From positions 2,083,049 to 2,147,048 of the forward strand of contig NC_037253.1 of NCBI RefSeq assembly GCF_000002425.4: a stretch of DNA of 64,000 nt. Reading direction: 5' to 3'. The position numbers were made by a program, and so were the translations under genes. This document shows positions 9,749-41,837 of the stretch, piece after piece. The stretch's first letter is position 1. Every line of letters starts with the position of its first letter. This stretch comes from Physcomitrium patens. Its lineage: Eukaryota; Streptophyta; Bryopsida; Funariales; Funariaceae. The notes beneath the pieces are model-generated. The model had not been told where the DNA came from and ran no database searches. It saw only the letters and a program-made list of their open reading frames with translations.

Positions 9749-10762
9749 TGTTGTGTTGTAACACGAGTATACCGTGAAAATATAAAGAAAGAGGACTTTT
9801 ATTAATGTTTAGTTACCTCGAATATTGGGAGCAATGACCAATTCCGGTGCAAATACTGAGAGGCCAGGGTCAGTCACCCCGTTACAGTCAGTTGGGGCAT
9901 ACTGAAATGCTCCGTTCGATTCCAATAACAAGAGTGAGCTGAAAGAGAAAGGACCAATTCAATGACAGGTGAACTTGGTTCGAAGAGCCAATTGGATCCA
10001 ATTTCAAGACATCCAATCCAAATCTTACTACGGGCCTCTTAGCCAATATGAGACCTAAATTGGTCAGAGAAAGCGTTGACGGCGGGAGCCAATTCCGGAT
10101 CCAAGACGAAAGATTGAAGAAATTTAAAGGCTAGGGTTTGAAAAAGGAGAGAATTAGGATTAAAAGAGAGGATAGATTAAGAAATGAAGGGAGAGAGAAT
10201 AAGATTTTTTTAGAAGGATCGGAGAGCTAGCTTCATGCTTTGGGAGGGGAAAAAAGATAGAAAATTGAGGTTTTTTTCTTCGTAGGGTTTTGGGAAGTCT
10301 AAGGCAATCGTTGCTAAAGTCGGTATTGTATTGGTGAATCGGGATTTTTAATGAAGTGGGTGTGATTACTCTTGAATGTTTTGTAAAATCGAAGTTACGT
10401 CTATGATTGAAGAATTAAAAAGGTGTCTATAGGATTGAGTGTGCGGAGTGAATGAAATTTATTGGATTAATCTAATGAGACAGTCAGTGGATACAAGATC
10501 GTGAGTATAAAGCGGTATCAAAGATTAGCAGTTTGGGTTGTTCGGGGTTCTCTGTAATGTCTAGAGACCTACCGGCTAGGGCAAAAAGGACTTTGGCGAG
10601 CAGTCGAAGGACATTCGTATAGATTTACGATATATTCTTGTAATTGTTTATATTTCAACAGTAAAAAACTGATAGACTGCTTGAATATTAGCAAATCTCC
10701 ATACTACCTTCTACAACCAGACGCCCGGTGCGTTCTCGAGCAGGAAAGCATGTAATACGACA
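9749..10762 (+). repeat. Element A 5' LTR
   Basis: Begins TGTTGTGTTGTAACACG (a C-to-T change from the family TGTCGTG) and ends GTAATACGACA. It is about 120 bp shorter than its 3' partner because of a deletion near 10070. Confidence 0.88.
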
Positions 10763-17959: not shown

Positions 17960-18898
17960 TGTCGTGTTGTAACACGAGTATACCATGAAAATATAAAGAA
18001 AGGGGACTTTTATTAATGTTCAGTTACTTCAAATATTGGAAGCAACGAACAATTCCTGTGCAAATACTGAGAGGCCAAGGTCAGTCACCTCGTTACAGTC
18101 AGCTAGGGATACTGAAATGCTCCGTTTGATTCCAATAACGGGAGTCAGCAGAAAAGAAAAGGACTACTTCGATGACAGGTGAACCTGGTTCGAAGAGCCA
18201 ATTGGATCCAATTTCAAGACATCGAATCTAAGTCTTACTACGGGCCTCTTAGTCAATAAGAGACTTAAATTGGTCGGGTGACTCAATGTGGTCCCGATTA
18301 CGGGGCTCCGATTCTGTTTCAGGCTGTTCCGTCCTTTGTGCTATTCCGCGAACGTCCTTTCAGTAAAAGAATCTCTTAAAGGTAAAAACGGAGGAGAAAG
18401 CTCTGATGGCGAGAGCCAATTCCGGATCCAAGACGAAAGATTGAAGAAATTCAGAGGCTAGGGTTTAAAAAAGGAGAGAATTAGGGTTAAAAGGGAGGAT
18501 AGGTTAAGAAATGAAGGGAGAGAGAATAAGATTTTTTTAGAAGGGTCGGAGAGCTAGCTTCATGCTTTGGAAGTGGAAAAAAGATAGAAAATTGAGGTTT
18601 TTTTTTTTTGTAGGGTTTTGGGAAGTCTAAGGCAATCGTTGCTGAAGTCGGTATTGTATTGGTGAAACAAGATTTTTAATGAAGTGGGTGTGATTACTCT
18701 TGAATATTTAGTGAAATCGAAGTTACATCTATGATTGAAGAATTAAAAGGGTGTCTACAGGATTAAGTATGCGGAGTGAATGAAATTTATTGGGTTAATC
18801 TAACGAGACAGTCAATGGATACAAGATCGTGAGTATAAAGCGGTATCGAAGATTAGCAGTTTGAATTATTGGGGGTTCTCTGTAACGTCTAGAGATCT
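17960..18898 (+). repeat. Element A 3' LTR, first part
   Basis: Starts TGTCGTGTTGTAACACG after the PPT. Retains about 120 bp missing from the 5' LTR. Cut at 18898 by element B; the target reads GATCT on this side and AACCT on the far side, where the uninterrupted family has GACCT. Confidence 0.9.
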
Positions 18899-18916
18899 TG
18901 TCATGGACATACATTG

Positions 18917-19076
18917 GAAAATTCTTCGAATATTCTTCTAGAATATTCTCTTAAGATTCTCTAAAGATTCCTTTAGAAGATTCTAGAAGATTCTTAGAAT
19001 ATTCCCTAAAGATTCTTTTAGAAGGTTCTAGAATATTCTTAGAAGGTTCTAGAATATTCTGATAGATTCTAGGAAG
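18917..19076 (+). promoter_or_regulatory. Heat-shock-element array in the B LTR
   Basis: Alternating GAA and TTC modules at 2-bp spacing form the HSF-binding consensus. Three uninterrupted four-module sites are seen: 18976-18993 (GAAGATTCTAGAAGATTC), 19021-19038 and 19042-19059 (both GAAGGTTCTAGAATATTC). Further two-module GAAnnTTC sites lie around them. The array sits about 80-220 bp upstream of the TATA box, with a GAGAAGCTTCC dimer nearer to it. HSF binding is inferred from sequence only. Confidence 0.75.
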
Positions 19077-19139
19077 TTGCTCGTGTTGGAGAAGCGTCCT
19101 AGTTAGCGGAAGTAGCTCGAGAAGCTTCCTATTCAGTAG

Positions 19140-19182
19140 TTTATATAGGAGTCGAGGCTGAAGGGTTCTTCAGTCTCGACAA
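19140..19182 (+). promoter_or_regulatory. B core promoter with U3/R dyad and predicted transcript 5' end
   Basis: A TATA box (TTTATATAGG, 19140-19149) is followed by a 13-bp inverted repeat with a 4-nt loop (19151-19163 / 19168-19180; one G.U if RNA). The predicted start, about 30 nt below the TATA box, is near 19171. From there CAGTCTCGACAA (19171-19182) is exactly complementary to 19310-19321 beyond the LTR. Element C keeps the same geometry with different bases. Confidence 0.7.
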
Positions 19183-19309
19183 CACATCTCTTGGAGTTCT
19201 AGCTCACCCTTCTGGTGTTGTTCTTGTGCTCATCTGTTTAATCTAGTTTTACCACTTCTTCTTGAACTTCTTGTTAGATTTCAAGTCTGTAGTTTGTGTC
19301 CGTGACAGT

Positions 19310-19321
19310 TTGTCGAGACTG
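19310..19321 (+). other. Self-complementary primer-binding site of B
   Basis: TTGTCGAGACTG starts 2 nt after the 5' LTR and pairs over all 12 nt with 19171-19182, the predicted first bases of the transcript. This is the arrangement used by the self-priming S. pombe element Tf1. A 2-nt gap fits integrase end-processing. Confidence 0.65.
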
Positions 19322-19330
19322 CATTTTCAC

Positions 19331-19342
19331 TGGTATCAGAGC
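19331..19342 (+). other. Initiator-Met-tRNA-like sequence downstream of the B LTR
   Basis: TGGTATCAGAGC matches the common plant tRNA-iMet primer-binding site but starts 24 nt after the LTR, too far to define the LTR end. In B' and C only TATCAGAGC remains and the TGG needed to pair with a tRNA CCA end is lost. It is probably not the functional primer site. Confidence 0.45.
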
Positions 19343-19360
19343 TAGTTCCTTCTTGTTAGA

Positions 19361-19545
19361 GAGTGGATTACCCCTCTTCTTGAAGGTGTGCTAGTGTTTT
19401 AGAGGTTGCGGATTACCCTCTTCTAAACTGATATCTCTTCTTTCTCAATATTGGAGCCTTATTCTTCTTGGAGAGAGTGGATTACCCCTCATCTTGGAGT
19501 CTTAAGGCATTTTAGAGGTTGCGGAGTACTCTTCTCTGAACCAAT
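19361..19545 (+). repeat. Tandem leader repeat with GGATTACC octamers (B)
   Basis: Two diverged units of about 110 bp in the untranslated leader each pair GAGTGGATTACCCCTC with GAGGTTGCGGATTACC or a derivative. The same motif pair occurs twice in the B' leader and once in the C leader (37166-37235). Function is unknown; packaging or translation control is possible. Confidence 0.6.
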
Positions 19546-19610
19546 ATTGTCCTCTTCTCAAAACTCTTTTTTCTTCTTTCTGAAGGTTAGCCAAAGGTTA
19601 AGACGTTAAA

Positions 19611-20612
19611 ATGGCTGAAAGTTTGGAATCCAAACTAGACGCCATCATAAATGCTCTTGCCTCGTTGTCACATAGGACAACAGAGATCGAAGGAGTCATG
19701 GTAGGACTCCATAACAATGGAGCATCTGGGATAGCGCCATCTAAAGCATATCAGCCTCAAACTTCTGCGCCAGAAGAAGCAGTTCTACCTCCATTTCAAC
19801 AAGATCGAGTAGTCCTAAAACGAAAGGAGCCTCGAGTTAGTCTTCCGGATAAGTTTGATGGAACTCGTTCCAAGTTTTGAGGTTTTGTCAACCAAATCAG
19901 GTTGATAACAATTTTACAGCCCGAACGTTATCCGACGGAGGAAGCGCGTGTTGGGCTTGTTGGAACCTTGCTTACAGCACAAGCTCTGTCTTGGTTTACT
20001 CTCTTGTTCGAGAAGCGATCGCCAATCTTGAGCAACTTTAAAACGTTCTTGGAGGCGTTTGCAGAAGCATTTGGCGAGCATGATAAAGTTCGATGGGCTA
20101 CAACAAAGATCCGATCGCTACGACAAGGAACACGCTCTGCATCAGTCTATGCCTCGGATTTCAGACAATTGGCAAGTGACATTAATTGGGGTGAAGAGGC
20201 GTTGGTGAGTCAGTTTTATTGGGGCTTGAAGGATGATGTAAAGGACTTGCTGTTATCTCTTCCTGATCCTCAAACGCTCAACGAAGCTATTAGCCAAGCT
20301 GTAAAGTGTGACAACCGCCTATTCCAGTGTCGCCAAGACCAACGTCCAAGATACCAAATGACTCGTTACGACGTGACTATGTCTGCAAATAACTTAAACT
20401 CACATTCGGAGGCAACAGACCTGCAAATCGATACGGCACGTGTCCGATCTCTTACTCCAACAGAGAAGAAACGACGTATGGAGGAAGGGTTATGTTTGTA
20501 CTGTGGAGAAGAAGGTCACAAGGTTGGAAATTGCCCAAAGAAGCAAAATTGGCACCCTGTCAAGACTAGAAGTGCGATGATTCCGGTAAACGACAACGCC
20601 CAGCCACAGTAG
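19611..20612 (+). pseudogene. Chromovirus B gag (one nonsense codon)
   Basis: 333 codons from ATG 19611 to TAG 20610-20612. An N-terminal helical segment is followed by a capsid-like region with PDKFDGTRSKF, ALSWF, ASVYASDFRQLA and LPDPQTLNEAI. A single CCHC knuckle CLYCGEEGHKVGNC sits near the C-terminus. The only defect is TGA at 19878-19880, where the B' copy reads CGA, a CpG-type C-to-T change. pol follows in the -1 frame. Confidence 0.9.
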
Positions 20613-20627
20613 GAACCGTGCGGCTGG
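20600..20627 (+). promoter_or_regulatory. Hairpin around the gag stop codon (B)
   Basis: CCAGCC (20600-20605) pairs with GGCTGG (20622-20627). The loop holds the gag TAG and ACCGTG. In C the same place has CCAGCT/GGCTGG (38331-38336 / 38353-38358). The block TAGGRACCGTGCRGCTGG is kept in all four chromovirus copies here. It is a candidate recoding or reinitiation signal for pol. Confidence 0.5.
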
Positions 20628-23600
20628 ACAATCTAATATCACGACAACAATCAGGTTCCTCCTTCTCTGTCCAACCTGCCCGTTGTTTTACAATTTCTTT
20701 GTTTTTAGGCCCTCAAAAACAAAAAACTTTAGCTTTATTGGATTCGGGGGCATCTACTTGTTTTTTAGATGAAGAGTTTGCTAAACGCCACAAGATCCGT
20801 TTAGTACAGAAGTCCAAACCTGTTCACGTAGAGGTGATAGATGGACGACCCTTATTGTCAAGCAACGTTACCCACGAATCAGAACCTATAGAAGTGGTGT
20901 TTAAGGACCATAGTAGTCACGTTATTTTTAATATTATTAGAATTCCATCAAGCCCTGTTATCCTTGGTCTTTCTTGGTTAGAAGATCATAATCCGTCCAT
21001 TGATTGGAGGCTACGAAGGATAACATTTCCTGAAAAAAATAATAATAAACCTGTTGGTAGAACCTACATGAAGAAATCCATGTTTATTGGAGCGAGAGCG
21101 TTCCTAAGATCGTCCAAGGAAGGCGCACCATTTGTCATTTATGCAGCTCCAACTAGCGGCGAGAATATCTCAACATCGAATATACCAGAGCAATATAGGG
21201 ATTTTGAAGACGTGTTTCAGAAGAAGAACGCCGATATACTGCCGGAACATCGACCATATGATTGCGCCATAGACTTAGAGGAAGGAGCGCAACCACCTTT
21301 TGGTCCAATATACAACCTATCGCAGACGGAGTTGGCAGAATTGCGGAAGTACATCGATGAGAATCTAGCCAAGAATTTTATTCGACATTCAAAGTCGCCA
21401 GCTGGAGCACCAATCTTATTCGTGAAGAAAAAAGATGGCTCACTGCAGATGTGCGTGGACTACCGAGGACTCAACAAGGTGACCAAGAAAAATCGCTATC
21501 CCTTACCTTTGATCTCCGGCCTCTTAGATCAACTTGGACGTGCAAGGATTTTTACAAAGATTGATTTAAGAGGAGCCTACAACCTTGTACAAATCAAAGA
21601 AGGAGATGAATGGAAGACAGCCTTTCGTACAAGGTATGGCCATTTTGAGTACAATGTCATGCCTTTTGGTCTTACCAATGCTCCAGCGGTCTTTCAGCAT
21701 ATGATGAACGACATCTTTTGGGAGTACCTCGATGACTTTGTTGTCATCTATCTGGATGATATTTTGATATTTTCCAAGAATGAAGAAGAACATGAGAAGC
21801 ACGTTTGTTTGGTTCTTAAAAAACTACGCGAACGAGGACTCTACGCCAAGTTGGAGAAGTGTCAATTTCACCAGAATGAGATGGAATTTTTGGGCTTCAT
21901 AGCGACTACAGAGGGCTTGAAGATGGATCCAAAAAAGGTAGAAGCAATTATATCTTGGGAAGTTCCGAAGATGGTTAGAGATGTTCAGTGTTTTCTTGGA
22001 TTTGCTAACTTCTATCGGATCTTCATCAAGAATTATTCTCAAGTTGCTGCACCACTCACGCGTCTAACAAGCAAAGACAAGCTCGAATGGGGATCACAAG
22101 CAGCAAAAGCATTTCAAGATCTCAAGACGGCATTCACTACGGCTCCAATCTTGGTACACCCTGACTTTGCAAAGGCTTTCTATTTAGAGATCGATGCTTC
22201 AGATTTTGCTTCGGGAGCTGTGCTTTCACAGATGGGCATAGACAAGAAGCTTCACCTAGTTGCGTTCTATTCACAAAAGTTCTCTGCTGCTGAGATCAAC
22301 TACGAGATCCACGACAAAGAGCTGCTTGCTATAGTGGATGCCTTCCAAGAGTGGCGTCACTTCCTCGAAGGAGCTGCACATCCAGTGACTGTTTATACGG
22401 ACCACAAGAATTTGGAGTACTTCATGACAGCTCGAATTTTGAATCGTCATCAAGCTCGATGGAATATGTCTCTATCACGATTTGACTTTATTATCACCTA
22501 CCGCCCTGGAACACAGCAAGGATTATCTGACGCATTATCGAGGAGATCGTATCTTGCGCCAAAGGCTGGAGAAAAAGCGTTTGATCAACAATGTACAACA
22601 TTGTTGAAACCAGAAAAATTCAGGATTTTTGCTACTGTTGCAACTATCAATGTCGGCTTCCTCAGCGAGGTACGTACTGCGACCATTGAGGATTCTATAG
22701 CTCTTGACATCAAACAACGTGTTGATAATGACAAATTTAAGGTGGAGGGAGATCTTCTGTATTTTGAGGAGCGGTTGTATATCCCGAAAGGACCAACTCG
22801 ACTCCGAGTACTTCAATCTCGCCACGACTTTCCAGCTGCGGGACATTTTGGATTCAACAAGACTTTGGAGCTCATTTCACGAGATTTTTGGTGGCCCCAA
22901 ATGTGGAAGGATGTGAAGGAATTTGTCCTTTCTTGTGATGTTTGTTCAAGATCCAAGATCCCTCGACATCGTCCGTATGGACTTCTCTAGCCATTGCCTA
23001 TTCCGCACCGACCATGGTCTTCAGTTTCTATGGACTTCATTACGGACCTACCGCCATCGAATTCATTTGACAGCATCTTTGTTGTGGTGGATCGATTTAC
23101 AAAGATGGCGCATTTCGTGCCTTGCAAGAAAACATCGTCAAGTGAAGACACCGCAAGACTCTTTCTTGATAACATATATTGTTATCATGGCCTACCAGAT
23201 GATATCGTGTCAGATCAAGGTACTCAGTTTGTATCCAAGTTTTGGAGGTCCCTCTTTGATATATTGAAGGTGGATATTAAGCTCTCTTCGGCTTTTCATC
23301 CTCAAATTGACGGTCAAACGGAGCGGGTGAATCAAGTTTTGGAGCAATATTTACGATGCAGCATCAACTATCAACAAGATGATTGGACTGCATATCTACA
23401 GCTTGCTGAGTTCGCATACAACAACACTCTTCATGCGTCAACTCAACAAACACCATTCTTCTCCAACTACGGATACCACTCCAAGCTCGATTTATTGAGT
23501 TCTTCAGCAAATAACAATCCAGCAGCTGAAGGATTTGTGAAGCAACTATCGGAGCTTCAAGCGACATTGAAGCTTCAATTGCAATCTGCCCAAGAGAGTT

Positions 23601-24088
23601 ACAAGGCATCTGCAGATAAATATCGAAATGAGGCGCCTACTTTTAAAGTTGGAAGTAAAGTATGGCTTCTTCGACGGAATATCAAGACCAAGCGGCCATG
23701 TGACAAATTGGACTATCGGAGATTAGGGCCATTTGTTATCGGGAAGCAGATCAATCCGGTGGCATATCGTTTGGAGTTACCAGCTACTATGAAGGTACAT
23801 CCAGTCTTTCATGTGTCTTTGTTGGAACCTTATCGAGAGTCAGCTTTTTCCCAAAGAGTACAAAGTCCGCCACCAAGTATCGAAATTGAAAACCAAGAGG
23901 AATACGAGGTGGAAAAGATACTAGATTCATGGCGTAATAGGAAAAAATTGGAGTATTTAGTGCATTGGAGTGGATACGACATCAATAAACGAACGTGGGA
24001 GCGTGCCAAAAATCTTGCCAATGCACCAAAAAAGGTACAAGAATTTCATCAACGATATCCTCATAAACCTAAGCCGATTCAACGATAG
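20618..24088 (+). pseudogene. Chromovirus B pol: PR-RT-RH-INT-chromodomain (one nonsense codon)
   Basis: About 1156 codons in the -1 frame relative to gag. The first in-frame codon after the gag stop region is GTG at 20618, so the true start (frameshift or reinitiation) is unknown. Protease has LALLDSGAST. RT has [20 protein letters not shown] and YLDDILIFSKN. RNase H has EIDASDFASGA and YTDHKNLEYF. The integrase zinc part ends CDVCSRSK and the core has MDFITDLP, SDQGTQF and HPQIDGQTERVN. The chromodomain is EYEVEKILDS...LEYLVHWSGYD..TWE. The only defect is TAG at 22988-22990, where C reads CAG. Confidence 0.92.
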
Positions 24089-24214
24089 CTTCTTGCTGAA
24101 GCTTGCTCATCAAGTAGCATAAAAAGGGGGGAGGGCACCTCCAAAACCCATAGTTCGATAGTGTAGAACTTTGTTAGCAACTATAGTTTGCTCTCATCAT
24201 TTTAGCCTTTGGAC

Positions 24215-24562
24215 ATGGATAGTCAAGATACTACACTTGTTATGTCATCTCAAGCCACTAGCTCATGAAGACGACCGCGAGATGAAGAACCGCCTGCACC
24301 ACGACGACGTCGGAGGATATCGAGCAACAGATCGCTAGTAATTGTATTTGAGGTGGAGCCTGCCTACGACGGTCAGCCAGAAGGTGTGTTTGGAGGACAG
24401 TTTCACAATGAAGACACAGAAGTCCACGCTTGGTCAGAGGTTGAAGGTGTTGGTCACTACCGTTGGCTCCAAGGGCCGATGAATCATTTGCCTCGCGAAC
24501 AACAATTGGAATTCATAGCGGATGTGATGCGACAGATTTTCATTTTCTTGCGTTGGTATTGA
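24215..24562 (+). pseudogene. Chromovirus B ORF3, conserved extra protein of unknown function
   Basis: 115 codons from ATG 24215 to TGA 24560-24562, starting 126 nt after pol. An Arg-rich N-terminal stretch (PRRRRRISSNRS) is followed by LVIVFEVEPAYDG, AWSEVEGVGHYRWLQGP and REQQLEFIADVMRQI. One TGA at 24266-24268 interrupts it, where B' has CGA. Homologues follow pol in C (140 codons, intact) and B' (117 codons). There is no signal peptide or membrane helix, so it is not env-like. The basic stretch may act in nuclear entry or RNA binding; that is a guess. Confidence 0.75.
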
Positions 24563-24612
24563 TTGATAACAACATTGCTTCTCGGAGACCTCGAAGTTAG
24601 AAGAGGAGGTGA

Positions 24613-25045
24613 TGTCATGGACATACATTGGAAGATTCTTCGAATATTCTTCTAGAATATTCTCTAAAGATTCTCTAAAGATTCCTTTAGAAGGTTCTAG
24701 AAGATTTTTAGAATATTCCCTAAAGATTCTTTTAGAAGGTTCTAGAATATTCTTAGAAGGTTCTAGAATATTCTGATAGATTTTAGGATGTTGCTCGAGA
24801 AGTTTCCTAATTAGTAGAAGTTGTTGGAGAAGCGTCCTAGTTAGCGGAAGTAGCTCGAGAAGCTTCCTATTCAGTAGTATATATAGGAGTCGAGGCTGAA
24901 AGGTTCTTCAGTCTCTACAACACATCTCTTGGAGTTCTAGCTCACCTTTCTGGTGTTGTTCTTATACTCATCTGTTTAATCTAGTTTTGCCACTTCTTCT
25001 TGAACTTCTTGTTAGATTTCAAGTCTGTATTTTGTGTCCGTGACA
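24613..25045 (+). repeat. Chromovirus B 3' LTR
   Basis: 433 bp, TGTCATGGACAT...GTCCGTGACA, after the purine tract ending at 24612. It keeps the heat-shock-element array. The R segment differs from the 5' copy by one base (CTCTAC for CTCGAC). Confidence 0.93.
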
Positions 25046-25242
25046 AACCTACCGGCTGGGGCAAAAAGGACTTCGACGAGCAGTCAAAGGACATCTATAT
25101 AGATTTACGATATATTTTTGTAGTTGTTTATATTCCAACAGTCAAAAATCGATGGACTGCTTGAATATTAGCGAATCTCCATACTACCTTCTATAACTAG
25201 ATACCCAACACGTTCTCGAGCAGGAAAGCACGTAATACGACA
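25046..25242 (+). repeat. Element A 3' LTR, second part
   Basis: Resumes AACCTACCGGCTGG and ends ATACGACA at 25242. The mirror copy is at 62176-62372, with two substitutions noticed by eye. Confidence 0.9.
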
Positions 25243-25369
25243 CCGTAATTCTATAATTAACCACTTTTAAGAATTAAATCACTTATCCATCCTCTTAAAT
25301 TCCCTATTATATGGACTATTAATATATTTTATTAATATTTTTCAAAAATGAATTAATATCTATTTTGTA
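25243..25369 (-). repeat. E2 3' LTR, proximal part (left arm)
   Basis: Matches 47228-47345 in reverse complement. Its first bases read TACAAAATAG where the 5' LTR has TGTAGAATAG. It is separated from the rest of the LTR by element A. Confidence 0.8.
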
Positions 25370-27295
25370 TAGCTCCACTCCTATCTGTGCAGCGTCCTCG
25401 CAAACACTCATTTGATACCTATTTAAAAATTATCTTACAAATCTCCACAAAACTTGCGATCCCTCTAGCCTATTTAATTAATCAATTGCCGCAGTATCTG
25501 TTATTGGTTCTACTGATTCCGGTTCCAACTACAAATCTTCTTCTTCTTTCGTGAGTCAATCGATTCTTTCCTCAATTGGTTTGAGAGATCTTCATTATAT
25601 TCACGTAGTACACGAACTTGAGCATCCAGTTTTAAGATCTGGACATCCCGAAGTTCCAATTATTATTGCTACTGACTCATCCATTCTAGAATATCTTCAA
25701 TCGACACTTGTGACTAGCTCCTCACTGTTATATCTCAACTGGAACTACTACTCTCAAAAATACAAGAAATACAAGAAAATGGTACTCTAGCCAACCCAAA
25801 ACAATACCACAGAATGACTTTAACTGGTGCCCCACTCCTATTTTTTTACTACTTGGTAATAATGACAACATGTTACCCATACTGTCCGTGAAAGGTAATG
25901 AAAAGTAATCTTTCTTGATGGCCGCATTAAACTTTCAAAAATCCTGACATATCCGAATTTTTCCATTCTTTTTTGGCACCATCACAATTGACAACACCTA
26001 TGCACTATGCGGAACAGGATAAATAAAACCCACATCAAGAAGTTTATCCAATTATTCTTTTACTAAAAGGAAATATTTTGGGATAAGCTGGTGTTGTCTT
26101 TGACGAACTGGCGTAACACCCTCCTCTAAAATAATCTGGTGCTCACACACATCGGCTGCAATCCCTTTCAAATCCGCATACAACCACGCAAAGGTAGATT
26201 TGTGATGGATGAAAAATCATTTCTAAGCATCCAAATCTATACCGATAATATCAGCATATATTTTAATTAGCTGTGGCATTTCGTTGGTGCTCAGGTTAAT
26301 AGATTGATACATATAGTCATCAACAACCTCTGATTTAATTATATTCTCTTGATCTGAATATCTTGTATTATCCAACATATGGGAACCACCCAAATCTGGT
26401 TCCAATGTGTTGATTCTATTGATTGCAAAATTATTCATCCATTCGGCAATAGCATGATCCGAATTAGTCGCATCCTCCTGATGCAGTAAATATTCATCAA
26501 GACCTCCACATTGGTAGACTCCTGCCTTTGTTGTTGAAGTGTTTTGTCCTACCCGAAATTGTGGTGAACCTATAACATCGGCATCTTCTTCAATCGATTG
26601 ACTCTTGTTGTCCAATATAAATTCAGATTTTGGCAATTGAGATTTTTCATGATATTATACCAGATACATCTATAGAATAATCAGGTCCCAGCCTTTTCCA
26701 ATTGTCAATGTGCCACAGCTCCAATCGTTCTTAGCTTTGGCTTGATAAAACCAAGGTCTGCTCAATAAAATAGGATACAATAACGTAGAACTCAATAATC
26801 GAAATATAATATAATCGATTTTGTATGTCAATCCCACGATTACAGTGGCAATATTTCATAAGATTTCCATTGGCTTTATCCGACTATGATCTGCCAAATA
26901 CAAGATCAATGTCGTAGATAGCAATTACATTAGATCCAAATCCTCCATTGTATCCGCATTCATTAAATTCACATAGGAACCGACATCGACTTGTATCCTT
27001 GGAATTACAATGCCATCGATTGATACATCGATTGTTGGTGCTCTCGGATCTGGGTTTAACCTAACTTCATGAATTTCTTTAGTGCGGAATCTTCATTGTA
27101 TTAGCACTGAATTCAATGTAGATCGACATTCCAGTGCTACAGCCAAAAGTTGCTTCATTGTAATTCAAGACTGAATAACATCCAAATCCTTCAGAATGTT
27201 GTAGGATTCCATATTGAGAGTAATTTCCAATGTTCTTTTGCGTTTCATTGCTTTTGATTTTACTTCGTGATGTAAGATAGTCTTCCGCCCTAGAA
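25370..27295 (-). pseudogene. E2 3' region: protease and truncated RT remnant (left arm)
   Basis: Minus strand from 27295: an Athila/Tat-type protease box (DGGSSVNLMNA), a linker open for 137 codons at 26636-26223 (SEFILDNKSQSIEE...), then the RT N-terminus (ILEEGVTPVRQRQ, VPKKNGKIR, DYFSLPFTDS). Sequence then jumps to 3' terminal noncoding sequence near 25860, so the RT catalytic core, RNase H and integrase are deleted. The 137-codon linker is identical at protein level to the right-arm copy at 60782-61195. Confidence 0.82.
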
Positions 27296-27711
27296 TGTCA
27301 ATGACACAAAAATACAGACTCAAGATCTAACAAGAAGTTTAAAAAGAATTAACAAGAATTAGATTAATTAGATGAGAACAACACCAGAGAGGTGAGCTAG
27401 AGCTCCAAGAAATGTATTGTCGAGACTGAAGAACTCTTCAGCCTCGATTCCAATATATACTTCTATTTAGGAAGCTTCTCAAGTAACTTCTACCAACTAG
27501 GAAGCTTCTAGAAGGTTCCAAAGACTTGTTTCTAGAAGGTTCTAGAAACTTATATCTAGAAGGTTCTAAGGACTATGTCTCTAATATCTTTTTCCAACTA
27601 AGAAGCTTCTAGAAGGTTCCAGAGACTTGCTTCTAGAAGGTTCTAGAAACTTGTTTGTAGAAGGTTCTAGAAACTTCTCTCTAGAAGATTCTAAAGATTA
27701 TGTCCCTAATA
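27296..27711 (-). repeat. B' 3' LTR (left arm)
   Basis: 416 bp, longer than the 5' LTR because about 110 bp holding several GAAnnTTC modules is duplicated inside it. Ends TTGACA on the element strand. Confidence 0.88.
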
Positions 27712-27761
27712 TCACCCCCTCCTTTAGCTTCGAGGTCTTTGAGAAGCAATGTTGTTGTTAA

Positions 27762-28115
27762 TCAGTACCAACGTAAGAAAATGAAGATCTGTCGCATAAC
27801 GTCTGCTATGAACTCCAACTGTTGTTCACGAGGCAAGGGGTTCATCGACCCTTGAAGCCCACGATAGCGGCCCACTCTTTCAACTTCTGACCAAGCATGA
27901 ACTTCCGTATCCTCATTATGAAATTGTCCAGCAAACACGCCTTTTGGCTGACCATCGTAAGCAGGCTTGGACTCAAATAAAATCACCAATGATTGGTTAC
28001 TCGATATCCTCCGTCGTCGTCATGGTGTAGGCAGTTCTTTATCTTGGGGTCGCCTTCGTGAGCTAGTCAGTTGAGATAATCTGACTAGCATAGTATCTAT
28101 CTCTTGGCTATCCAT
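27762..28115 (-). pseudogene. B' ORF3 (left arm)
   Basis: 117 codons from ATG 28115. Carries the ORF3 signature AWSEVE...GRYRGLQGS and REQQLEFIADVMRQI. One TGA replaces a CGA-type Arg codon in the basic stretch. The open part is 27762-27989. The right-arm copy has one further stop. Confidence 0.72.
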
Positions 28116-28246
28116 ATCAGAAGACCAAACTATGGCTATTGAAAAAATTCTATTTTATCTTGGAAAAAATAACTACATCAACTACGAATTTTGGTAGTGC
28201 TCTCTCCCTTTCTTATATTCTTGGATGAGCAAGCTTCAGAAGGAAG

Positions 28247-31200
28247 CTATCGTCGAACCGGCTTAGGTTTATGAGGATGTTGTTGATGAAACTCTTGTAC
28301 CTTTTGTGGCGCATTGGCGAGATTTTTAGCTGGCTTCCACGTTCGCTCATTAATGTCGTAGCCGCACCAATGAACAAGATACTCCAACTTGCCCCACCTT
28401 CGCCATGAATCCAGTACCTTTTCACCCTCGTATTTCTCATGGTTCTCAATCTCAATACTAGGTGGCGGACATTGCACTCTTCCAGGAATAGACGACTCTC
28501 GATAAGGCTCTAACAAAGAAACATGAAAGACGGGATGTACCTTCATAGAAGTTGGTAATTCCAGACGATACGCCACTGGATTGATTTGCTTCTGGATGAT
28601 AAATGGTCCCAATCTTCGATAGTCCAACTTATCACATGGTTGCTTGGTCTTGATATTCCATCGAAGAAGCTATGCTTTATCTCCAATTTTGAAAGTAGGT
28701 GCTTGATTTCAAAATCTATCTGCAAACGCCTTGTAGGATTCTTGAGCGGATTGTAATTGAAGCTTCAACATATTTTGAAGCTCTGATAGTTGTTTCACAA
28801 ATCCTTCAGCTGTTGGATTGTTATTTGTTGACGGACTCAATAAATCAAGCTTTAGATGATACCCATAGTTGAAAAAGAATGGTGTGTATTGAGTCGACGC
28901 ATGGAGGTTGTTGTTATGTGCCAACTCGCCTAGCAGCAGATATGTGGTCCAATCGTCTTGCTGATAGTTGATGCTGCATCGTAAGTATTGTTCCAAGACT
29001 TAGTTCACCCGTTCCATTTGACCGTCAGTTTGAGGATGAAAAGTCGAAGAAAGCTTGATATCCACCTTCAGTATCTCAAAGAGAGATCTCCAAAACTTTG
29101 ATATGAACTGGGTTCCTCGATCTCATACGATATCATCTAGTAGTCCATGATATCGATACACATTATCGAGAAAGAGCCTTGTTGTAACTTCACTGGACAA
29201 TGTCTTCTTGTAAGGAACAAAGTGCGCCATCTTTGTAAGCCGATCTACCACGACAAAGATGCTGTCAAATGAGGTCGATGATGGAAGGTCCATGATGAAG
29301 TCCATGGAAACTAAACACCATAGTCGACGTGGAATCGACAATGGCTGTAGAAGTCCATAAGCGCAATGCCGAGGATTCTTAGATCTTGAACAGATGTCGC
29401 AGGAGAGGAAAAAATCTTTCACATCCTTCTACATTTGGGGCCACCAAAAATCTCGAGAAATAAGCTCCAAAGTCTTGTTGAATCCAAAATGTCTCGCAGT
29501 TGGAAAATTGTGGTGAGATTGAAGAACTCGGAGTCGTGCTTGTCCTTTTGGGATATACAACTGCTCCTCAAAGTATAAAAGATCTTCCTCCACCTTGAAC
29601 TTGTTGTCATTGGTACGCTGCTTGATATCAATGGCTACTGAATCTTTAATGGTGGCGGCACGTACCTGATTCAAGAAGTCAGCATCAATTGGTACAATAG
29701 TAGTACAAAGTCAAAATTACTCTAGCTTCAACAACGTCGTACATTCTTGATCAAACAATGCTTCTCCAGTCTTTGGTACAAGATACGATCTCTTCGATAA
29801 GGCATCAGATAGTCCTTGCTACTTTCTAGGTTGATAAGTGATAATTAAATCGAATCTAGATAGCAACATACTCCACCAAGCTTGACATCAATTTAGAACT
29901 CGAGCAGACATGAAATACTCCAAATTCTTGTGATCAGTGCATACGGTCACTGGGTGTGTAGCTCCTTCAAGAAAATGATGCAATTCTCGGAAAGAATCAA
30001 CTACAGTAAGAAGTTCCTTATCGTGGATCTCATAATTGATTTCAACAGCAGAGAACTTTTGAGAATAGAATGCAACCGGATGGAGCTTCTTGTCTTCTCC
30101 CATTTGTGAAAGTACAGCTCCCAAAGCAAAATCCAAAGCATCAGTTTCTAAATAAAAGGCCTTTGTAAAGTCTGGGTGTATCAAGATTGGAGCCGTAATA
30201 AATGTAATTTTTAGGTCTTGAAACGCCTGCTCCGCTAGAGATTCTCATTCCAGCTTATTGTTGCATGTCAATCGAGTGAGAGGAGCAGCAACTTGAGAAT
30301 AATTCTTGATGAAGATTCGATAGAAGTTGGCAAAGCTAAAAAAGCATTGTACGTCTCTCACCGTCTTTGGAACCTCCCAAGACACGATTGCTTCCACCTT
30401 CTTGGGGTCCATCTTCAAGCCTTTGGTAGTCGCAACGAACCCCAAAAACTCCATCTCTATTTGGTGAAATAAATACTTCTCCAACTTGGCATATAGTCCT
30501 CGCTCTGGTAGTTTCTCCAAGGCCAAACGAACGTGCTTTTCATGCTCTTCCTTATTTTTGGAGAATATCAAAATATCATCCAAAAAGATGACAACAAAAT
30601 CGTCAAGGTACTCTCGAAAAATGTCATTCATCATATGTTGAGAGACCACTGGAGCATTGGTAAGACCAAAGGGTATGACATTATATTCAAAATGGCCATA
30701 CCTTGTACGGAACGCTGTCTTCCACTCATCTCCTTCCTTGATTCATACGAGGTTGTAAGCTCCCTTTAGATCAATTTTTGTAAAAATCCTTGCAAGTCCA
30801 AGTTCTTCTAAGAGACCACAAATCAAGGATAACGAATAAAAATTCTTCTTTATTACCTTGTTGAGGCCTCGATAGTCCAGGCACATCCGTAATGAGCCAT
30901 CTTTCTTCTTCACAAATAAGATGGATATTCTAGCCAATGATTTTGAATGACGGATGAAGTTCTTGGCTAGATTCTTGTCAATGTACTTCCGTAACTCCGC
31001 CAATTCCATCTGCGATAGATTGTAAATTGGGCCAAAAGGTAGTTGTGCTCTTTCCTATAAGTCTATGGCGCAATCATATGGTCTGTGTTTTGGTAGCATG
31101 TCGGCATTTTTCTTTTGAAACATGTCTTTAAAATCCTTATATTGCTCCGGTATACTTGTTGTCGAGATCTTCACCCCAGTAGTTGGAGCCGCATAAATGA

Positions 31201-32751
31201 CAAATGGTGTGCCTTTCTTGGATGATCTTATAAATGCTCATGCTCCAATAAATAAGGATTTCTCTATTCGGGGTTTTTTACTAGACTTGCTTTTGGGTGG
31301 TTTTGTGGGAAAGGTCATCTTCCACAACTTCCAATCTATGGATGGGTTATGCTTTTTCAACCAGGAAAGACCAAGAATAACAGGATTTGATGGAATTCTA
31401 ATAATATTGAAAATAATATGACTACTATGGCCCTTAAACGTCACTTCTATAGGTTCTGATTCATGGGTGACACTACCAGACAATAAAGGTCGCCCATCTA
31501 TGACCTCAACGTGAACAGATTTGGATTTTTATACTAAAGGAATCTTATGATGCTTTGCAAATTCTTCATCTAAGAAATAAGCAGATGCTCCTGAATCTAA
31601 TAATGCTAAAGTTCTTAGTTTCTGAGGGCCAATAAACAAAAGGATTCTAATACAAAGGGCAGGTTGAGCGGAAAGAAAAGAACCTGGTTGTTGTTGCAAT
31701 ATTTTACTGTCCAGCTGCACAGTTCCTATTGTGGCTAGGCATCCTCATTTTCTTGAGTAAACACACCTCTAGTCTTGACAATACGTCGATTTTGCTTCTT
31801 GGGACAGTTTCCAACTTTGTGGCCTTCTTCACCGCAATACAAGCATAGATCTTCCTCCATACGTCACTTTTTTTCTTCTAGAGTAAGAAATTTGACACGT
31901 ACCGCATCAATTTACATGTCTTCTACCTCTGAATGTGAATTCACATTGCTTGCTGACATAGTTGGGGTGTGGCGAACCGTATGTTGTCTTAAACGTTGGT
32001 CTTGGCAGCGTTAGAATAGGTAGTTATCGCACTTCACAGCTTGGCTAATAGCTTCGTTGAGCGTTTGTGGATCAGGAAGAGTTAACAGCAAATCCTTCAC
32101 ATTGTCCCTTAAATCCCAATAGAATTGACTCATCAACGCTTCTTCGTCCCAATTGATGTCGCATGTTAATTGCTTGAAGTCCGATGCATAGACTGATGTA
32201 GAGCGCATCCCTTGTCATAGTGACCGGATCTTTGTTATACCCCATCGAACCTTATCGTGTTCACCAAATGCTTCCGCAAATGCCTCCAAAAAGATTTCAA
32301 AGTTGTTTAGTATGGACGATCCTTTCTCAAACAAAGGAGCAAACCATGATAGAGCTTGTTCTGTAAATAAGGTTCCAACAAGCCCAACACGTGACTCTTC
32401 CGTTGGATAGCGCTCGGACTCTAAAACTGTTATCAACCTGATTTGATTGACAAATCTTCGAAACTTAGAATGCATACCATCGAACTTGTCTGGAAGGCTA
32501 ACTCGGGACTCTTTATGTTGTAGAATCAGCGGTGCTTGTCGAACCTGAGGCAAAGTTGCTTCTCCAAGTGCAGTAGTTTGAGGCTGGTGCAACTTAGATT
32601 GTACCATCCAAAATGCTCCATCATTATGAAGCCTTGCCACGACTCCTTCAATCTCTGCAATTCTTTGCGATGACGTAGAGAGGGCATTCATGATAGCATC
32701 TAACTTGAACTCCGAACTTTCCGTCATACTAATGTCTTGGCCCCCGGCCAT
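28247..32751 (-). pseudogene. B' gag-pol (left arm)
   Basis: gag from 32751 (MAGGQDISMTESSEFKLD) with PDKFDGMHSKF. The protease has LALLDSGASAYFLDEEFAKHH (31720-31529). RT has [10 protein letters not shown] and FLDDILIFSKN (30649-30245), and RNase H has ETDALDFALGA (30184-29888). Integrase has DICSRSK and MDFIMDLP (29674-28709). The chromodomain is KVLDS...LEYLVHWCGYD (28627-28247). At least ten stops break it. Relative to the right arm it differs by 0-2.5% per segment. Confidence 0.88.
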
Positions 32752-33030
32752 TCTAAGAGAAGGACAAAAATGACTCTACAAGAAGATAATATTGGTTTAG
32801 AGGACGGTACTCCGCAACCTCAAAAATGCCTTAAGAGCTTCAAGAGAAGGAGTAATCCACTCTTTCCAAGAAGAATAAGACTCCAATATTCTAACAAAAG
32901 AAGTATCAATTTAGAGGAGGGTAATCCGCAACCTCTAAAATGCTAGTACACTTCCAAACAGAGAGGTAATCCACACTCTAATAAAGAAAAACTAGCTCTG
33001 ATATCTGAGGTGAGTGTAGTCTCGACAAAC

Positions 33031-33321
33031 TGTCATGAACACAGAAATACAGACTCGAGAACTAACAAGAAGTTTAAAAAGAACTGACAAGAACTAAATT
33101 AATCAGATGAGAACAACACCAGAGAGATGAGCTAGAGCTCCAAGAGATGTATTGTCGAGACTGAAGAACTCTTCAGCCTCGATTCTAATATATACTCCTA
33201 TTTAGGAAGCTTCTCAACCAACTCCTATCAATTAGGAAGCTTCTAGAAGGTTCCAGAGACTTGTTTCTAGAAGGTTCTAGAAACTTGTCTCTAGAAGGTT
33301 CTAAGGATTATGTCCCTAACA
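33031..33321 (-). repeat. B' 5' LTR (left arm)
   Basis: 291 bp. It has one 24-bp unit (TTCTAGAACCTTCTAGAGACAAG type) fewer than the 315-bp right-arm copy, so heat-shock-element number has changed since the duplication. Confidence 0.87.
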
Positions 33322-33645
33322 TGAACTTGAAATTGGAACAACAGTCAGGCTTCTTTGGAATTTCCACCCTGTAGAGGATCTTTCAACGGATAGGACGTTT
33401 CTTGGAACTGCATAGTGATCAAAATTGCTTGGAACGAAACCGAAGCCTCCGTAATTAGGACCTCATTGGGTTGTGCCACTGAGTCAAGTCTCATACTAGG
33501 TACAAAGTCCATAGCAGGACCTGGATTGGATGGTCCCGACCAATTGGCACGTGGAACCAAATTAGGTTCCTTAGTCTGTTGAAGTCTCAATATTGATATT
33601 GGTTCATTAAGTCCATGGACGGCGTCATGATCTTGGTCGTCCCGT
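33322..33645 (-). pseudogene. E2 gag fragment between B' and LTR-F (left arm)
   Basis: Encodes EEPNLVPRANWSGPSNPGP-like sequence on the minus strand. Compared with 53338-54078, about 440 bp holding two CCHC knuckles is deleted near 33622. Confidence 0.75.
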
Positions 33646-34911
33646 TGTCGTACTGTAAATGCTTACAGTATATAAAAATTAATTAAAACATATTATATGT
33701 TAATAAATCTAAATGTGTGTTAAAGTGATTAATAGATTAAATTAAAAAGAGTTGGTAAAAAAAATAAATAAATAAATAACTTTATTTTGTTTTCTTTATT
33801 TAGTTTGATTATAGTATATAAAAGTTATAGAACCTTAATGTTAAGTATGAAGCCTTGAGAGAAGATAGGGGCCTAAAGATGAAGATTTAAACTAATAGGA
33901 GGTTAATTGGGAGGGATGAAACCAAGGCATGGTTGGATGAAGGTAGAAATAAGGATCTTCATCCCCATTAGTCGAAATCCATGCCCAATGGGCTTTTAGG
34001 AGGCTACCCGCGACCTTGATAAGGGTTTCGGCGACTTCAAAGAAGCCATTAGGAAATCAGAGGCAAGGATTGTAAATTTTAGGGTTCTGGATACAATTTT
34101 TGTGCAAATTTTATAGGGTTTGGAGTTAGGGTGAATAAGTTATAGCCGTTTGAAGTTAAGGTGTCAATTTGAGACCTACTGTTACTCTTTTGAGTTTAAG
34201 AGGAGTCTTACGGAAGCTTTTGGAGATCGGAAGGTGCGGCTGGAAGGGCAACTTCAAGACATACATCTTTTGCGAAGGAAATTTTGCATTTGGAGTTTGT
34301 GTAAAGGAGTTATAGGGAGTTAAAGACAGCGCATTTAAATCAATGGCAGTAAGTGAACGGTTTTGTTCAAAGTAGTGTTAGGAGCCATAACTTGAGTTTT
34401 CGAACGAAATTTTGGCTCAAACTTTGCGAGAATGTAAAAATTTGTGTTAAAAAGCTATTTATATAAGTTTCGTGGCATTTGGACTTATGGTTTGTGAGAT
34501 ATGAAGAAAATTGCGCGCGGGTATATAAAGATTAGGGTTTGAAGCGACTATTAGGGTTTTGAAGATATCTCAAGATCCGCGACGAATTTGCGGTTGAAAT
34601 TTGTTGTACAAATTAATAACAACATATCAGTACTTCATGTAAATTTTGATCTTGTTTGGACGGTTGGATCAAGAGTTATGAGGTGTTGAGTTTCGGGAGA
34701 ATTTCTACTCAAGGATATACAAGGTTTTAGAGTACTTCTACCATATTTTGGGTGTTGTTGGTTATTTAAGACTTAAGTATTTGGTGTAATTGTCCCAAAA
34801 AGAGAACTTATATATATAAAATTAGGGTTTCCTTATTTTAAGCTTGATTGAGTAATTAGAGACAGCCAGAAGCCCATCGCTTTTTTCAGGCAAAACCTCT
34901 CTACCCCAACA
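33646..34911 (-). repeat. Solo LTR F (left arm)
   Basis: 1266 bp, TGTCGTACTG...CTACCCCAACA on plus, flanked by a perfect 4-bp duplication CCGT (33642-33645 and 34912-34915). No internal sequence accompanies it. The orientation is arbitrary, as no element with coding sequence was found. Two more copies are at 47929-49215 and 52071-53337. Confidence 0.88.
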
Positions 34912-35460
34912 CCGTTGGTACTGAGAGAACTTGGTTTAATGACGTCGGTGGAGCATATTGCTGATACCTCTGCTGCTTCTTACCATAGTTCTGGGGGTTC
35001 GATACAGACCCTTGATTAAAACTGGAACTTTGAAAGTTATTGAATGCTCGATTTTGTCGATTGAATCGATTTCCATTCCATCCAAACGTATTTCTTATTT
35101 GTACTTGATTGATGTCTCACTGGGTTGGTGGGAACATGGTCTGATTACTAAATTATTGTTGTTGTCTTACCAATTCCAACAATTTGCTGTTAGGTGCTTT
35201 CCTTGATAAAATCTACATTGATCCATTATTTGTGAGGGTAAGGAGCATTCTTTTACAGAATGACCGTGGCCCTTACAATTACCGCACCATACATTGGACC
35301 TAGTATTGGTAGACTTTTGCCTCTTCTCTTTATCTTTGACCATATTGACCGCCATTTCGTCCATTTTCTTCGTCAAATTCAATAACAAGATTTCATTGGA
35401 ATCTTTTAGGCCTGACATTATTAGTATCTCTGCCGTAGTTAACGCTTGTTGTTGATACGG
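34912..35460 (-). pseudogene. E2 gag C-terminal part with CCHC knuckle (left arm)
   Basis: Minus-strand frame holds ALTTAEILIMSGLKDSNEIL and the knuckle CGNCKGHGHSVKEC, followed by CRFYQGKHLTANC. Cut by LTR-F below and LTR-A above. Confidence 0.82.
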
Positions 35461-36584
35461 TGTCGCTTTCTTGCTCGAGAACGCGCAGGGCATCTGGCTG
35501 TAGAAGGTAGTATGGAGATTCGCCAATAATCAAGCAGTCTATCAGTTTTTGACTGCTGGAATATAAACGATTGCAAGAATATACCATAAATCTATACGGA
35601 TGTCATTCGACTGCTTGTCAAAGTCCCTTTTGTCTCAGCCGGTAGGTCTCTAGACATAACAGAGAACCCCGAACAACCCAATCTGCTAATCTTCGATACC
35701 GCTTTGTACTTATAATCTTGTATCCACTGACTGTCTTGTTAGATTAACCCAATAAATTTCATTCACTCCACATACTCAATCCTATAGACACCCTTTTAAT
35801 CCTTCAATCACAGACGTAACTCGATTTCACAAACAGTCAAGAGTGATCACACCCACTTCATTAAAAATCCCGATTCACCATTATAACACTGACTTCAGCA
35901 ACGATTGCCTCAGTCTTCCCAAAACTCTATGAAGAAGAAAAATCCAATTCTCCGTCTTTTCTTCCCCGACCGGAGCATGAAGCTCCTCTCCAATCCCCTT
36001 AATCTTCAAAAACCTCCAATAAAAACCGAACTAGTAACCTTGAAAAAAACTTGAAGCTAGCTCTCCGATCCAAAAAACCCCCCCCCCTCGCCTCTGATAT
36101 GAAAAAAAAAACCCTCTCCAAAACTTATTCTCCTCCTAACCTTATCCTCTGAATTTCTTCAATCTTCCGTCTTGGATCCGGAATTGGCTCCCACCGTTAG
36201 AGCTTAGATCCAAAATTGGCTCTCGCCATCAAAGCTTTCTCCTCCATTTTTACCTTTAAGAGATCTATTTACCGAAAACAACGTTCCTTGAAATGGCACA
36301 GAGAATAGGACAGCCTGAAACAGAATCGAAACCCCGTACTCGGGTCCACATTGAGTCGCCCGACGAATTCAGGTCTCATATTGGGTAAGATGCCAGTAGT
36401 AATTTGGATGTTTGCGTAATTGGGTCCAATTGGTCTTCGCATCAGATTGGCTAAGGTCCGTAGTAAGACCTAGATTTTCCCGTAATTAGACTGCATTGGG
36501 TTACCCGGCCAATTCAGGTCTCATATTGGATAAGAGCCCAGTATTAAGACCCGGATTGGATTCTCAAAATTGGATCCAATTGGT
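35461..36584 (-). repeat. LTR of family A in E2 gag, first part (left arm)
   Basis: Target duplication ACGG (35457-35460 and 43182-43185). A 9-bp deletion near its start and about 5% divergence separate it from the right-arm copy at 50151-51521. It is interrupted by chromovirus C. No A internal sequence is present, so it is a solo LTR. Confidence 0.9.
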
Positions 36585-36891
36585 GTCACGGACATACATA
36601 TAATTACCTATATGAATAGATAAAAGTATGTAAAAGTAGATAAAAGTAGGTTAATTGTGTAATATCTTCTAGAGAAGCTTCTTAGAAGCTTCATAGATGC
36701 TGCTTTGACTTTATAGGAGTCTATAGTTGACTTTTAGGTTAGAAACTTGGTCAACAAGTTAGCCATGTGCCACACATGTTGGAAGCTTAAAGAACAAGCT
36801 AACTACGTGGTCCATCCATAGAAAACTTGCCTTGCAAGCAAAGGCATGTGGCCTAGAAAGTCAACATATTTTGGAGGTCTTATAGAACATC

Positions 36892-36923
36892 GCCACGTGG
36901 CTTCTAGTTAGATAGTATATATA
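36892..36923 (+). promoter_or_regulatory. G-box/ABRE and TATA box in the C LTR
   Basis: GCCACGTGGC (36892-36901) contains the CACGTG G-box and the CACGTGGC abscisic-acid-response consensus. It lies 14 bp before TATATATA (36916-36923). A weaker TACGTGGT occurs at about 36804. All are kept in the 3' LTR. bZIP/bHLH control is inferred. Confidence 0.6.
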
Positions 36924-36925
36924 GA

Positions 36926-36957
36926 GGCAAGAGTGAAGCCCTCTTCACTCTTGTCAA
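36926..36957 (+). promoter_or_regulatory. C U3/R dyad and predicted transcript 5' end
   Basis: 13-bp arms 36926-36938 and 36943-36955 with a 4-nt loop, the same architecture as in B but with different bases. CACTCTTGTCAA (36946-36957), 30 nt below the TATA box, is exactly complementary to 37126-37137. Confidence 0.68.
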
Positions 36958-37125
36958 CTCCTTTCTTGCTTCTAGTCTAGTTTCAAGGGTCTCTAGTTTT
37001 CTTGTATTTTGGCAATAGCCATTCCATTTTCTTTCTTAATATACATATTTCTATTTTGTCCTATTTCTTTTTGAGAAAAGTCTCACTTACTCTTTAGCTT
37101 TCATCGAGTTCTTGTCCTTGACAGA

Positions 37126-37137
37126 TTGACAAGAGTG
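37126..37137 (+). other. Self-complementary primer-binding site of C
   Basis: TTGACAAGAGTG begins 2 nt after the LTR, as in B. All 12 nt pair with 36946-36957. The degenerate TATCAGAGC at 37147-37155 lacks the TGG required by a tRNA primer. Confidence 0.66.
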
Positions 37138-37335
37138 CACTTACAATATCAGAGCTTTGTCTTTTCTTGATTAAGAGTGGATTACCCCTTTTTCTTGATA
37201 AGACATAAGCGCATTAGAAGTTGCGGATTACCGTCTTTTAAACTGATATTGTTCTTAGTATTTTCTTTGTTATCAATTCCTCTCTTCTATTTGTTTTGAG
37301 CATTATTAGACATCTTCTCTTTTCTAAGTGCTACT

Positions 37336-41300: not shown

Positions 41301-41837
41301 AATCGGTTGTCAGAGTTACATACAATAATGAAGACACAATTGAAGGAAGCTCAAGAACGACAAAAGATAAACGCAGATCTATATCGTAAGGAGCAACCAC
41401 AAATCAACGTGGGTGATAAAGTATGGCTACTTCGTCGCAATATCAAGACCACTCGACCTTGTGACAAATTGGACTATCGTAGGCTTGGCCCCTTTTCTGT
41501 TTCTGAACAGATCAACCCAGTTGCATATCGGTTACATCTACCGGAGTCAATGAAGATCCATCCTGTATTCCACGTGTCTCTTCTTGAACCATATAAGACA
41601 GTGGATATACAAGGAAGAAGACAAATGCCACCGCCTCCTATAGAAGTAGATAATAATGAAGAATTTGAGGTGGAAGAGATATTAGACTCAAGGCGGTGCC
41701 GAAATAAGCTGGAATATCTTGTACATTGGTGCGGATATGATATTAGTGAGCGCACATGGGAGCCATCCAGGAATCTCGCAAATGCATCAGCTAAAGTCAA
41801 AGTTTTTCATCAACGACATCCATCAAAACCAAGATGA
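38349..41837 (+). pseudogene. Chromovirus C pol: PR-RT-RH-INT-chromodomain (one nonsense codon)
   Basis: About 1162 codons, in the -1 frame of gag with the same 8-nt offset as B. Protease has ALVDSGASSCFLDEEF. RT has VDYRGLNKIT, TKIDLRGAYN and YLDDILIYSKN. RNase H has ETDASDFALGA and YTDHKNLEYF. Integrase has CDICSRSK, MDFITDLP, SDRGT and HPQTDGQTERVN. The chromodomain has EEILDS...LEYLVHWCGYD. The single stop, TAA at 40986-40988, replaces the Gln that follows SDRGT in the integrase core. Confidence 0.93.

Follow-up and report, generated by a model that had tools for sequence, protein, structure and literature searches.

Results

Retrotransposons at the locus

The window, by which we mean the whole 64,000-nucleotide stretch of Physcomitrium patens DNA under analysis, carries the LTR retrotransposons B, C and B' as well as B'', an inverted duplicate of B' (Table 1). 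Pfam profiles recover the Ty3/gypsy order of gag, protease, reverse transcriptase (RT), RNase H, integrase and chromodomain in B and, behind a gag-like piece, the same order in C; for B' the Pfam scan covered the RT/RNase H piece only. Relative to the gag frame of B and the gag-like frame of C, pol lies at -1, with overlap; stops interrupt the gag-like frame at 37840 and 37948, its last stop being at 38341. The frames of B' are too broken for this comparison. No -1 slippery heptamer was detected in the gag-pol stretches scanned. Read by eye from the translations, the residues at what we take to be the aromatic cage positions of the chromodomain are Y, W and Y in B and F, W and Y in C. A search of viral contigs with the RT piece of B gave one stretch that matched a pattern and encoded no relative.

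The surroundings have a duplication history of their own. Window positions 23418-36583 form an inverted duplication with 50391-64000 (pieces 97-99% alike, one 93%), and C was inserted into the left arm after that event, with its empty site intact near 50384 of the right arm. Among matches to the B' leader, the top 11 (96-100%) cluster on C1 at about 1.97-2.38 Mb and on C79, on both strands, which suggests local segmental amplification including the window (C1:2083049-2147048). Direct repeats at 9749-10567 and 17960-18895, about 8.2-8.3 kb apart and 90-93% alike, possibly represent a further LTR element or a tandem duplication.

Table 1. Features of elements B, C, B' and B'' (window coordinates; PBS, primer binding site; TSD, target site duplication)
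Feature	Position	Strand	Basis or remark
5' LTR of B	18899-19307	+	direct repeat with 24613-25045, 91%; ends TGTCA...TGACA
TATATA box of B	19142-19147	+	30 nt before predicted +1
U3-R hairpin of B	19151-19180	+	arms 19151-19163 and 19168-19180, 13 pairs (one G-U), loop 19164-19167; -22.8 kcal/mol
Putative self-primer of B, first 11 nt of RNA, +1 = A19172	19172-19182	+	11/11 complement of 19310-19320; copy boundary
Putative self-PBS of B	19310-19320	+	2 nt past LTR
PBS position 12 of B	19321	+	G27 A2 C1 in 30 copies; neighbouring columns invariant
Leader Y unit 1 of B	19329-19449	+	model match; also one of five training rows; covariation
TGGTATCAGAGC, tRNA-iMet PBS lookalike	19331-19342	+	5' strand of B leader unit 1
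Leader Y unit 2 of B (as cut for alignment)	19438-19560	+	alignment; not a separate model match
gag piece of B	19902-20612	+	PF03732, E 7.6e-13; Ty3_capsid
pol piece of B: protease, RT, RNase H, integrase zinc finger	20618-22990	+	-1 frame relative to gag; stop at end
Integrase core and chromodomain piece of B	22994-24088	+	rve, SH3_Tf2-1, Chromo E 1.2e-14
3' LTR of B	24613-25045	+	direct repeat of 5' LTR
Putative PBS of B'' (inverted duplicate of B')	33018-33028	-	primer 33152-33162 on - strand; not independent of B'
5' LTR of C	36584-37123	+	97% with 3' LTR; TSD ATTGG 36579-36583
TATATA box of C	36916-36921	+	31 nt before predicted +1
U3-R hairpin of C	36926-36955	+	13 pairs (one G-U), loop 36939-36942; -19.7 kcal/mol
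Putative self-primer of C	36947-36957	+	copy alignment
Putative self-PBS of C	37126-37136	+	copy alignment
PBS position 12 of C	37137	+	A21 G9 in 30 copies
Leader Y unit of C	37142-37270	+	model match; also training row; covariation
gag-like piece of C	37336-37842	+	DUF4939 E 2.1e-11, above cut-off; Ty3_capsid below cut-off
pol piece of C: protease, RT, RNase H, part of integrase	38349-40988	+	Pfam
Integrase C-terminal and chromodomain piece of C	40992-41837	+	Chromo E 7.8e-15
3' LTR of C	42397-42936	+	followed by TSD ATTGG 42937-42941
5' LTR of B'	54079-54393	+	start set by eye; LTR repeat analysis
U3-R hairpin of B'	54241-54270	+	12/13 pairs, one of them G-U
Putative self-primer of B'	54262-54272	+	pairing with PBS
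Putative self-PBS of B'	54396-54406	+	11/11; position 12 = 54407
Leader unit 1 of B'	54416-54542	+	model match; unit 2 follows, aligned as 54530-54650, not a separate match

The start of the predicted RNA is complementary to sequence behind the LTR

The original prediction held that each element carries, below its TATA box, a 12-nt segment complementary to another just behind the 5' LTR. In letters and coordinates this is correct for 19171-19182 with 19310-19321 in B (12/12), 36946-36957 with 37126-37137 in C (12/12) and 54261-54272 with 54396-54407 in B' (11/12, the mismatch being a base outside the conserved block defined below). Constancy of position was likewise borne out, as the 5' LTRs end in TGACA at 19307 (B), 37123 (C) and 54393 (B') and are followed by 2-nt spacers (GT, GA and GT, respectively) before the putative PBS, and as the predicted +1 lies 30-32 nt downstream of TATATA in all three. 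Between B and C bases differ and pairing is retained, as had been claimed, with three compensated positions inside an 11-mer. In a scan of the whole window, 12-mers with a 12/12 reverse complement 110-190 nt upstream occur at 2 of 63,988 positions, which are 19310 and 37126, and 62 further positions have an 11/12 match at that distance.

Genomic copies, whose alignment had been proposed as a check, retain the pairing in 90 loci of the B, C and B' families. For each query the sample takes in 30 of 40 scored candidates, those ranked first, out of 2442, 1956 and 4855 first-look candidates for B, C and B', and since only top-scored candidates entered it, the loci are young and resemble one another. 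Four (L001, L031, L061, L068) lie in the window itself; all 90 could be anchored for the primer-PBS comparison, L090 weakly, and 51 (16, 6 and 29 for B, C and B') are distinct in sequence around primer and PBS. Among these 51, positions 2-12 of the segment as originally drawn are Watson-Crick paired in 548 of 561 cells (3 G-U, 10 unpaired), position 1 is paired in just 29 copies, and pairing stops past position 12, so that the block is bounded at both ends of an 11-mer. These boundaries make 11 nt, from A19172 in B, the best estimate of the primer; this revises the 12-nt length and the start at 19171 first put forward and excludes C19171. As the mismatch of B' sits exactly on the excluded position, primer and PBS match 11/11 in B, C and B' alike. 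The predicted start then has C at -1, A at +1 and a TATA box 30-32 nt upstream, except in L067, which is without TATATA.

Two primer sequences, AGTCTCGACAA and ACTCTTGTCAA, occur in the material examined, and each of the three positions at which they differ is compensated in the PBS. With just two primer groups, the covariation amounts to one B-to-C divergence plus conservation. The further claim that selection acted on pairing thus stands in part: pairing is kept, yet selection is not forced, since plus-strand copying of the primer into the PBS would itself restore the match.

Diverged relatives came from a covariance model of the leader unit (see below), which returned 99 matches, nearly all of them the query families again; we used five diverged C-type leaders, present among the loci already collected, and left out a sixth candidate (L045; 15.1 bits, E 0.35), in which no primer or PBS was seen. 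From primer to PBS (R-U5) the five are 78-87% identical to C. L069 and L046 show full primer-PBS pairing (11/11), L088 has 10 Watson-Crick pairs and one G-U, L065 10/11 and L067 9/11. Four relatives have the primer of C unchanged (11/11; one change in L067) and all five keep 10-11 of its 11 PBS bases, which is also why just two primer sequences were found. These data bear on the view that the pair is a product of chance or of shared ancestry, inherited by B and C without any role. B, B' and C are indeed related and copies within a family are nearly identical, but this view does not account for the three compensated differences between B and C or for a primer and PBS kept in the diverged C-type leaders; we have rejected it and regard it as the most improbable of the alternatives.

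Structured leader units and rival roles for the complementarity

Downstream of the PBS, B and B' each have two Y-shaped RNA units of about 105 nt, arranged in tandem, and C has one. Across these five units double-sided changes occur in 12 of 37 leader pairs, and 94.0% of paired cells are kept compared with 86.9% in shuffles (0/500 reach the observed value) and 44-59% in slid controls. The percentage is partly circular, as the structure was predicted from the same five rows, and the double-sided changes are the stronger evidence. No Rfam family reaches its threshold with either leader (B, one match of 16.4 bits against a gathering score of 81; C, none). GTGGATTAC and GTTGCGGA are invariant in the five aligned units (19329-19560, 37142-37270, 54416-54650). 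We see in the units a candidate packaging or Gag-binding signal.

With so much structure nearby, the complementarity might serve as a structural stem only, in a long-range leader fold for packaging or translation, with another primer in use. In the RNAfold predictions for B and C the 12 bp do form the outermost stem, and the downstream leader resembles structured RNA. Such a stem, however, predicts neither the exact placement at LTR+2, nor a start defined by the TATA box, nor one variable base past the primer end (see below). Nor is a conventional primer site at hand: tRNA 3' ends require a PBS starting TGG, the putative PBS of B, C and B' starts TTG at LTR+2, and no TGG starts at LTR+0 to +5 in any of the three, so that a tRNA-type PBS is absent from this interval. 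We therefore rejected pairing for structure alone, which we think improbable.

A specific tRNA candidate lies further inside B, where TGGTATCAGAGC, a lookalike of the usual plant tRNA-iMet PBS, stands 23 nt past the LTR. Its 12-nt match to that sequence would favour priming by tRNA-iMet at 19331, but C and B' keep only TATCAGAGCT, and the motif makes up the 5' side of a stem that covaries, with unit 2 reading TATTGGAG opposite a compensating partner. Moreover, priming there would leave 23 extra nt past the LTR end. Being inside a covarying stem and too far from the LTR, this site was rejected, and we consider its use very unlikely. What follows the LTR matches the start of the elements' own RNA, so self-priming, rather than priming by a cellular tRNA, is to our minds the most likely mode.

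A hairpin across the predicted RNA start

A hairpin of 13 pairs with a 4-nt loop can form across the predicted +1 in 8/8 elements (B, B', C and the five relatives), with complete pairing (G-U allowed) in B, C, L069, L046 and L065 and one mismatch in B', L088 and L067. For B, C and B' each, 0/500 mononucleotide shuffles fold as well. Between B and C, hairpin arm, primer and PBS change in step. Of the primer, nt 1-9 take part in the hairpin (L067 has one mismatch there); nt 10 is without a partner in 8/8 elements. The 3' LTR of C has the hairpin with one mismatch and two G-U pairs; the 3' LTR of B gave no match to the motif scanned. At the DNA level the core promoter is palindromic (19142-19180 and homologues), the hairpin spanning the predicted transcription start in all eight.

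As its 5' arm lies in U3, the whole hairpin would be present only at the 3' end of genomic RNA if the RNA starts at +1. There it could mask the primer copy in the 3' R so that this copy does not compete for the PBS; coverage of primer nt 1-9, though not of nt 10, is what would keep it away. A promoter function of the DNA palindrome may be an alternative role.

A variable base next to the primer end

PBS position 12 adjoins the primer 5' end, its partner being position 1 of the original segment (C19171 in B). In 30 copies of B' it is A14 G10 T6, and its non-major frequency is 0.10 in B, 0.30 in C and 0.53 in B', ranking 13th of 688, 2nd of 729 and 3rd of 656 columns, respectively. Position 11 and positions 13-19 are invariant in all three families (0.00 for 13-19); a B' column 8 nt before the PBS is likewise highly variable (0.43). 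When parsimony steps are counted on a tree from which the PBS was left out, position 12 comes second (tied) in B and first in C and B'; such a tree favours this position, and the fairer leave-one-out tree gives a weaker signal, with position 12 third (five tied) of 30 informative columns in B, 2nd of 13 in C and 1st of 160 in B'. Four-gamete conflicts do not mark it out (rank 16/30 in B, 4/13 in C, 48/160 in B').

Possibly, position 12 marks where RT ran past the primer 5' end while copying it. The variation of this base might instead stem from cytosine deamination, variable start sites or ordinary polymorphism, an account that we regard as possible if somewhat doubtful. That G and A are its commonest states speaks for this account, as do leave-one-out ranks that are not extreme in B and C. 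Against it, T (six B' copies) and C (one B copy) are present too, C10 of the same CTG site takes 0 steps in B and B' (element C is without CTG there), and the flanking columns are invariant in all three families.

Discussion

Taken from sequence, our findings make it highly probable that B, C and B' belong to the Tf1/sushi (Tcn1) type of chromodomain Ty3/gypsy retrotransposons and use the 5' end of the element RNA itself to begin the minus strand. In the mechanism we envisage, TATA box and pairing boundary would set the RNA start at A19172, A36947 and A54262, and the first 11 nt would loop round to pair with the PBS, which lies 2 nt behind the LTR. By analogy with Tf1, RNase H would then cut after nt 11 and the 11-mer would prime DNA synthesis. 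Later plus-strand synthesis would copy the primer and so rewrite the PBS to match it. If RT adds or misplaces a single base as it leaves the primer 5' end, variation at PBS position 12 could result. Only tentatively do we go one step further and propose, jointly, that position 12 is a replication scar, left by an untemplated or cap-derived base in some cycles, and that the U3-R hairpin keeps the 3' primer copy out of reach, so that priming falls to the 5' copy alone.

The layout of an 11-nt primer 30-32 nt below TATATA and a PBS at LTR+2 is Tf1-like, as the original prediction had it. In the parts of the literature that we draw on here, the first 11 bases of Tf1 RNA are described as complementary to the PBS, with a cut between bases 11 and 12 (PMC7175516), and self-priming together with a 'pretzel' fold is described for the Tf1/sushi group (PMC10085805). 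Tf1/Tf2 of Schizosaccharomyces pombe thus share with our elements the primer length (PMC7175516) and, in the portion of PMC10085805 concerned, the chromodomain integrase. Differences exist nonetheless. Gag and pol are in different frames here, unlike the single ORF of Tf1 (PMC10085805, same portion), and the -1 frame of B and C is as given there for Tf1/sushi members outside fission yeast. Of the Tf1-type 'pretzel' the central duplex is present and the side duplexes only partly so, and, in distinction to Tf1, not consistently in B, B' and C: the 3'-side duplex is reached or exceeded by a fraction of shuffles of 0.006 in B, 0.03 in B' and 0.36 in C, and the 5'-side duplex is not clearly above shuffles (0.91, 0.85 and 0.06, respectively).

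Among plant elements, the closest likeness is to the Tcn1 clade (PpatensLTR, SM-Tcn1), for which a chromodomain with aromatic cage and predicted self-priming, both as here, appear in the sections of PMC6317226, PMC3350952 and PMC2864245 that we cite. Accordingly, the notion that such priming was undescribed in plants has to be given up: in the relevant part of Neumann et al. 2019 self-priming is already predicted for most Tcn1-clade chromoviruses, that is for the majority of moss and club-moss Tcn1 elements, unlike other plant chromoviruses, and likewise for TAR copia elements (PMC6317226). In Novikova et al. 2010, P. patens elements are placed in Tcn1 (PMC2864245) and, differing from what we find here, Selaginella SM-Tcn1 is reported without evidence of self-priming. 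The aromatic-cage type of chromodomain is reported for moss and lycophyte Tcn1-like elements in the portion cited of PMC3350952, and the chromovirus tree of PMC10085805 includes P. patens PpatensLTR2. RLG1 (of the RLG1/RLG2/RLG3 gypsy families), the most abundant transposable element of P. patens according to PMC7466625, has a chromodomain integrase as well. Plant chromoviruses primed by tRNA-iMet, e.g. the Beta vulgaris families, have the chromodomain integrase and LTR layout in common with ours, but where an iMet PBS lies within 3 nt of their LTR (PMC3605345, as far as its cited part goes), our elements have the putative self-PBS. Tekay, Reina, CRM and Galadriel are likewise set apart by a tRNA PBS that lies within a few nt of the LTR, compared with TTG at LTR+2 here, which matches the elements' own RNA.

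Tf1-like self-priming of B, C and B' is hence very likely as judged from their sequences, and as far as the cited portions of the literature go it was already predicted for the clade that they resemble. What we did not meet in the literature searched is the exact 11-nt boundary in these families, the adjoining variable base, the hairpin and the leader RNA; for position-12 variability, U3-R hairpin and leader units the search, by title and start of abstract, found no description, which does not prove absence. For the self-priming predicted in the Tcn1-like clade, our genomic copies provide sharper evidence. If our interpretation holds, there are abundant retrotransposon families in plants that replicate by the mechanism known from fission yeast, with no need of a tRNA. 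Should the scar be real, too, primer length and RNA start would be readable from genomic copies alone, and position 12 would provide a sequence-only test of self-priming for other Tf1/sushi, Tcn1 and TAR elements.
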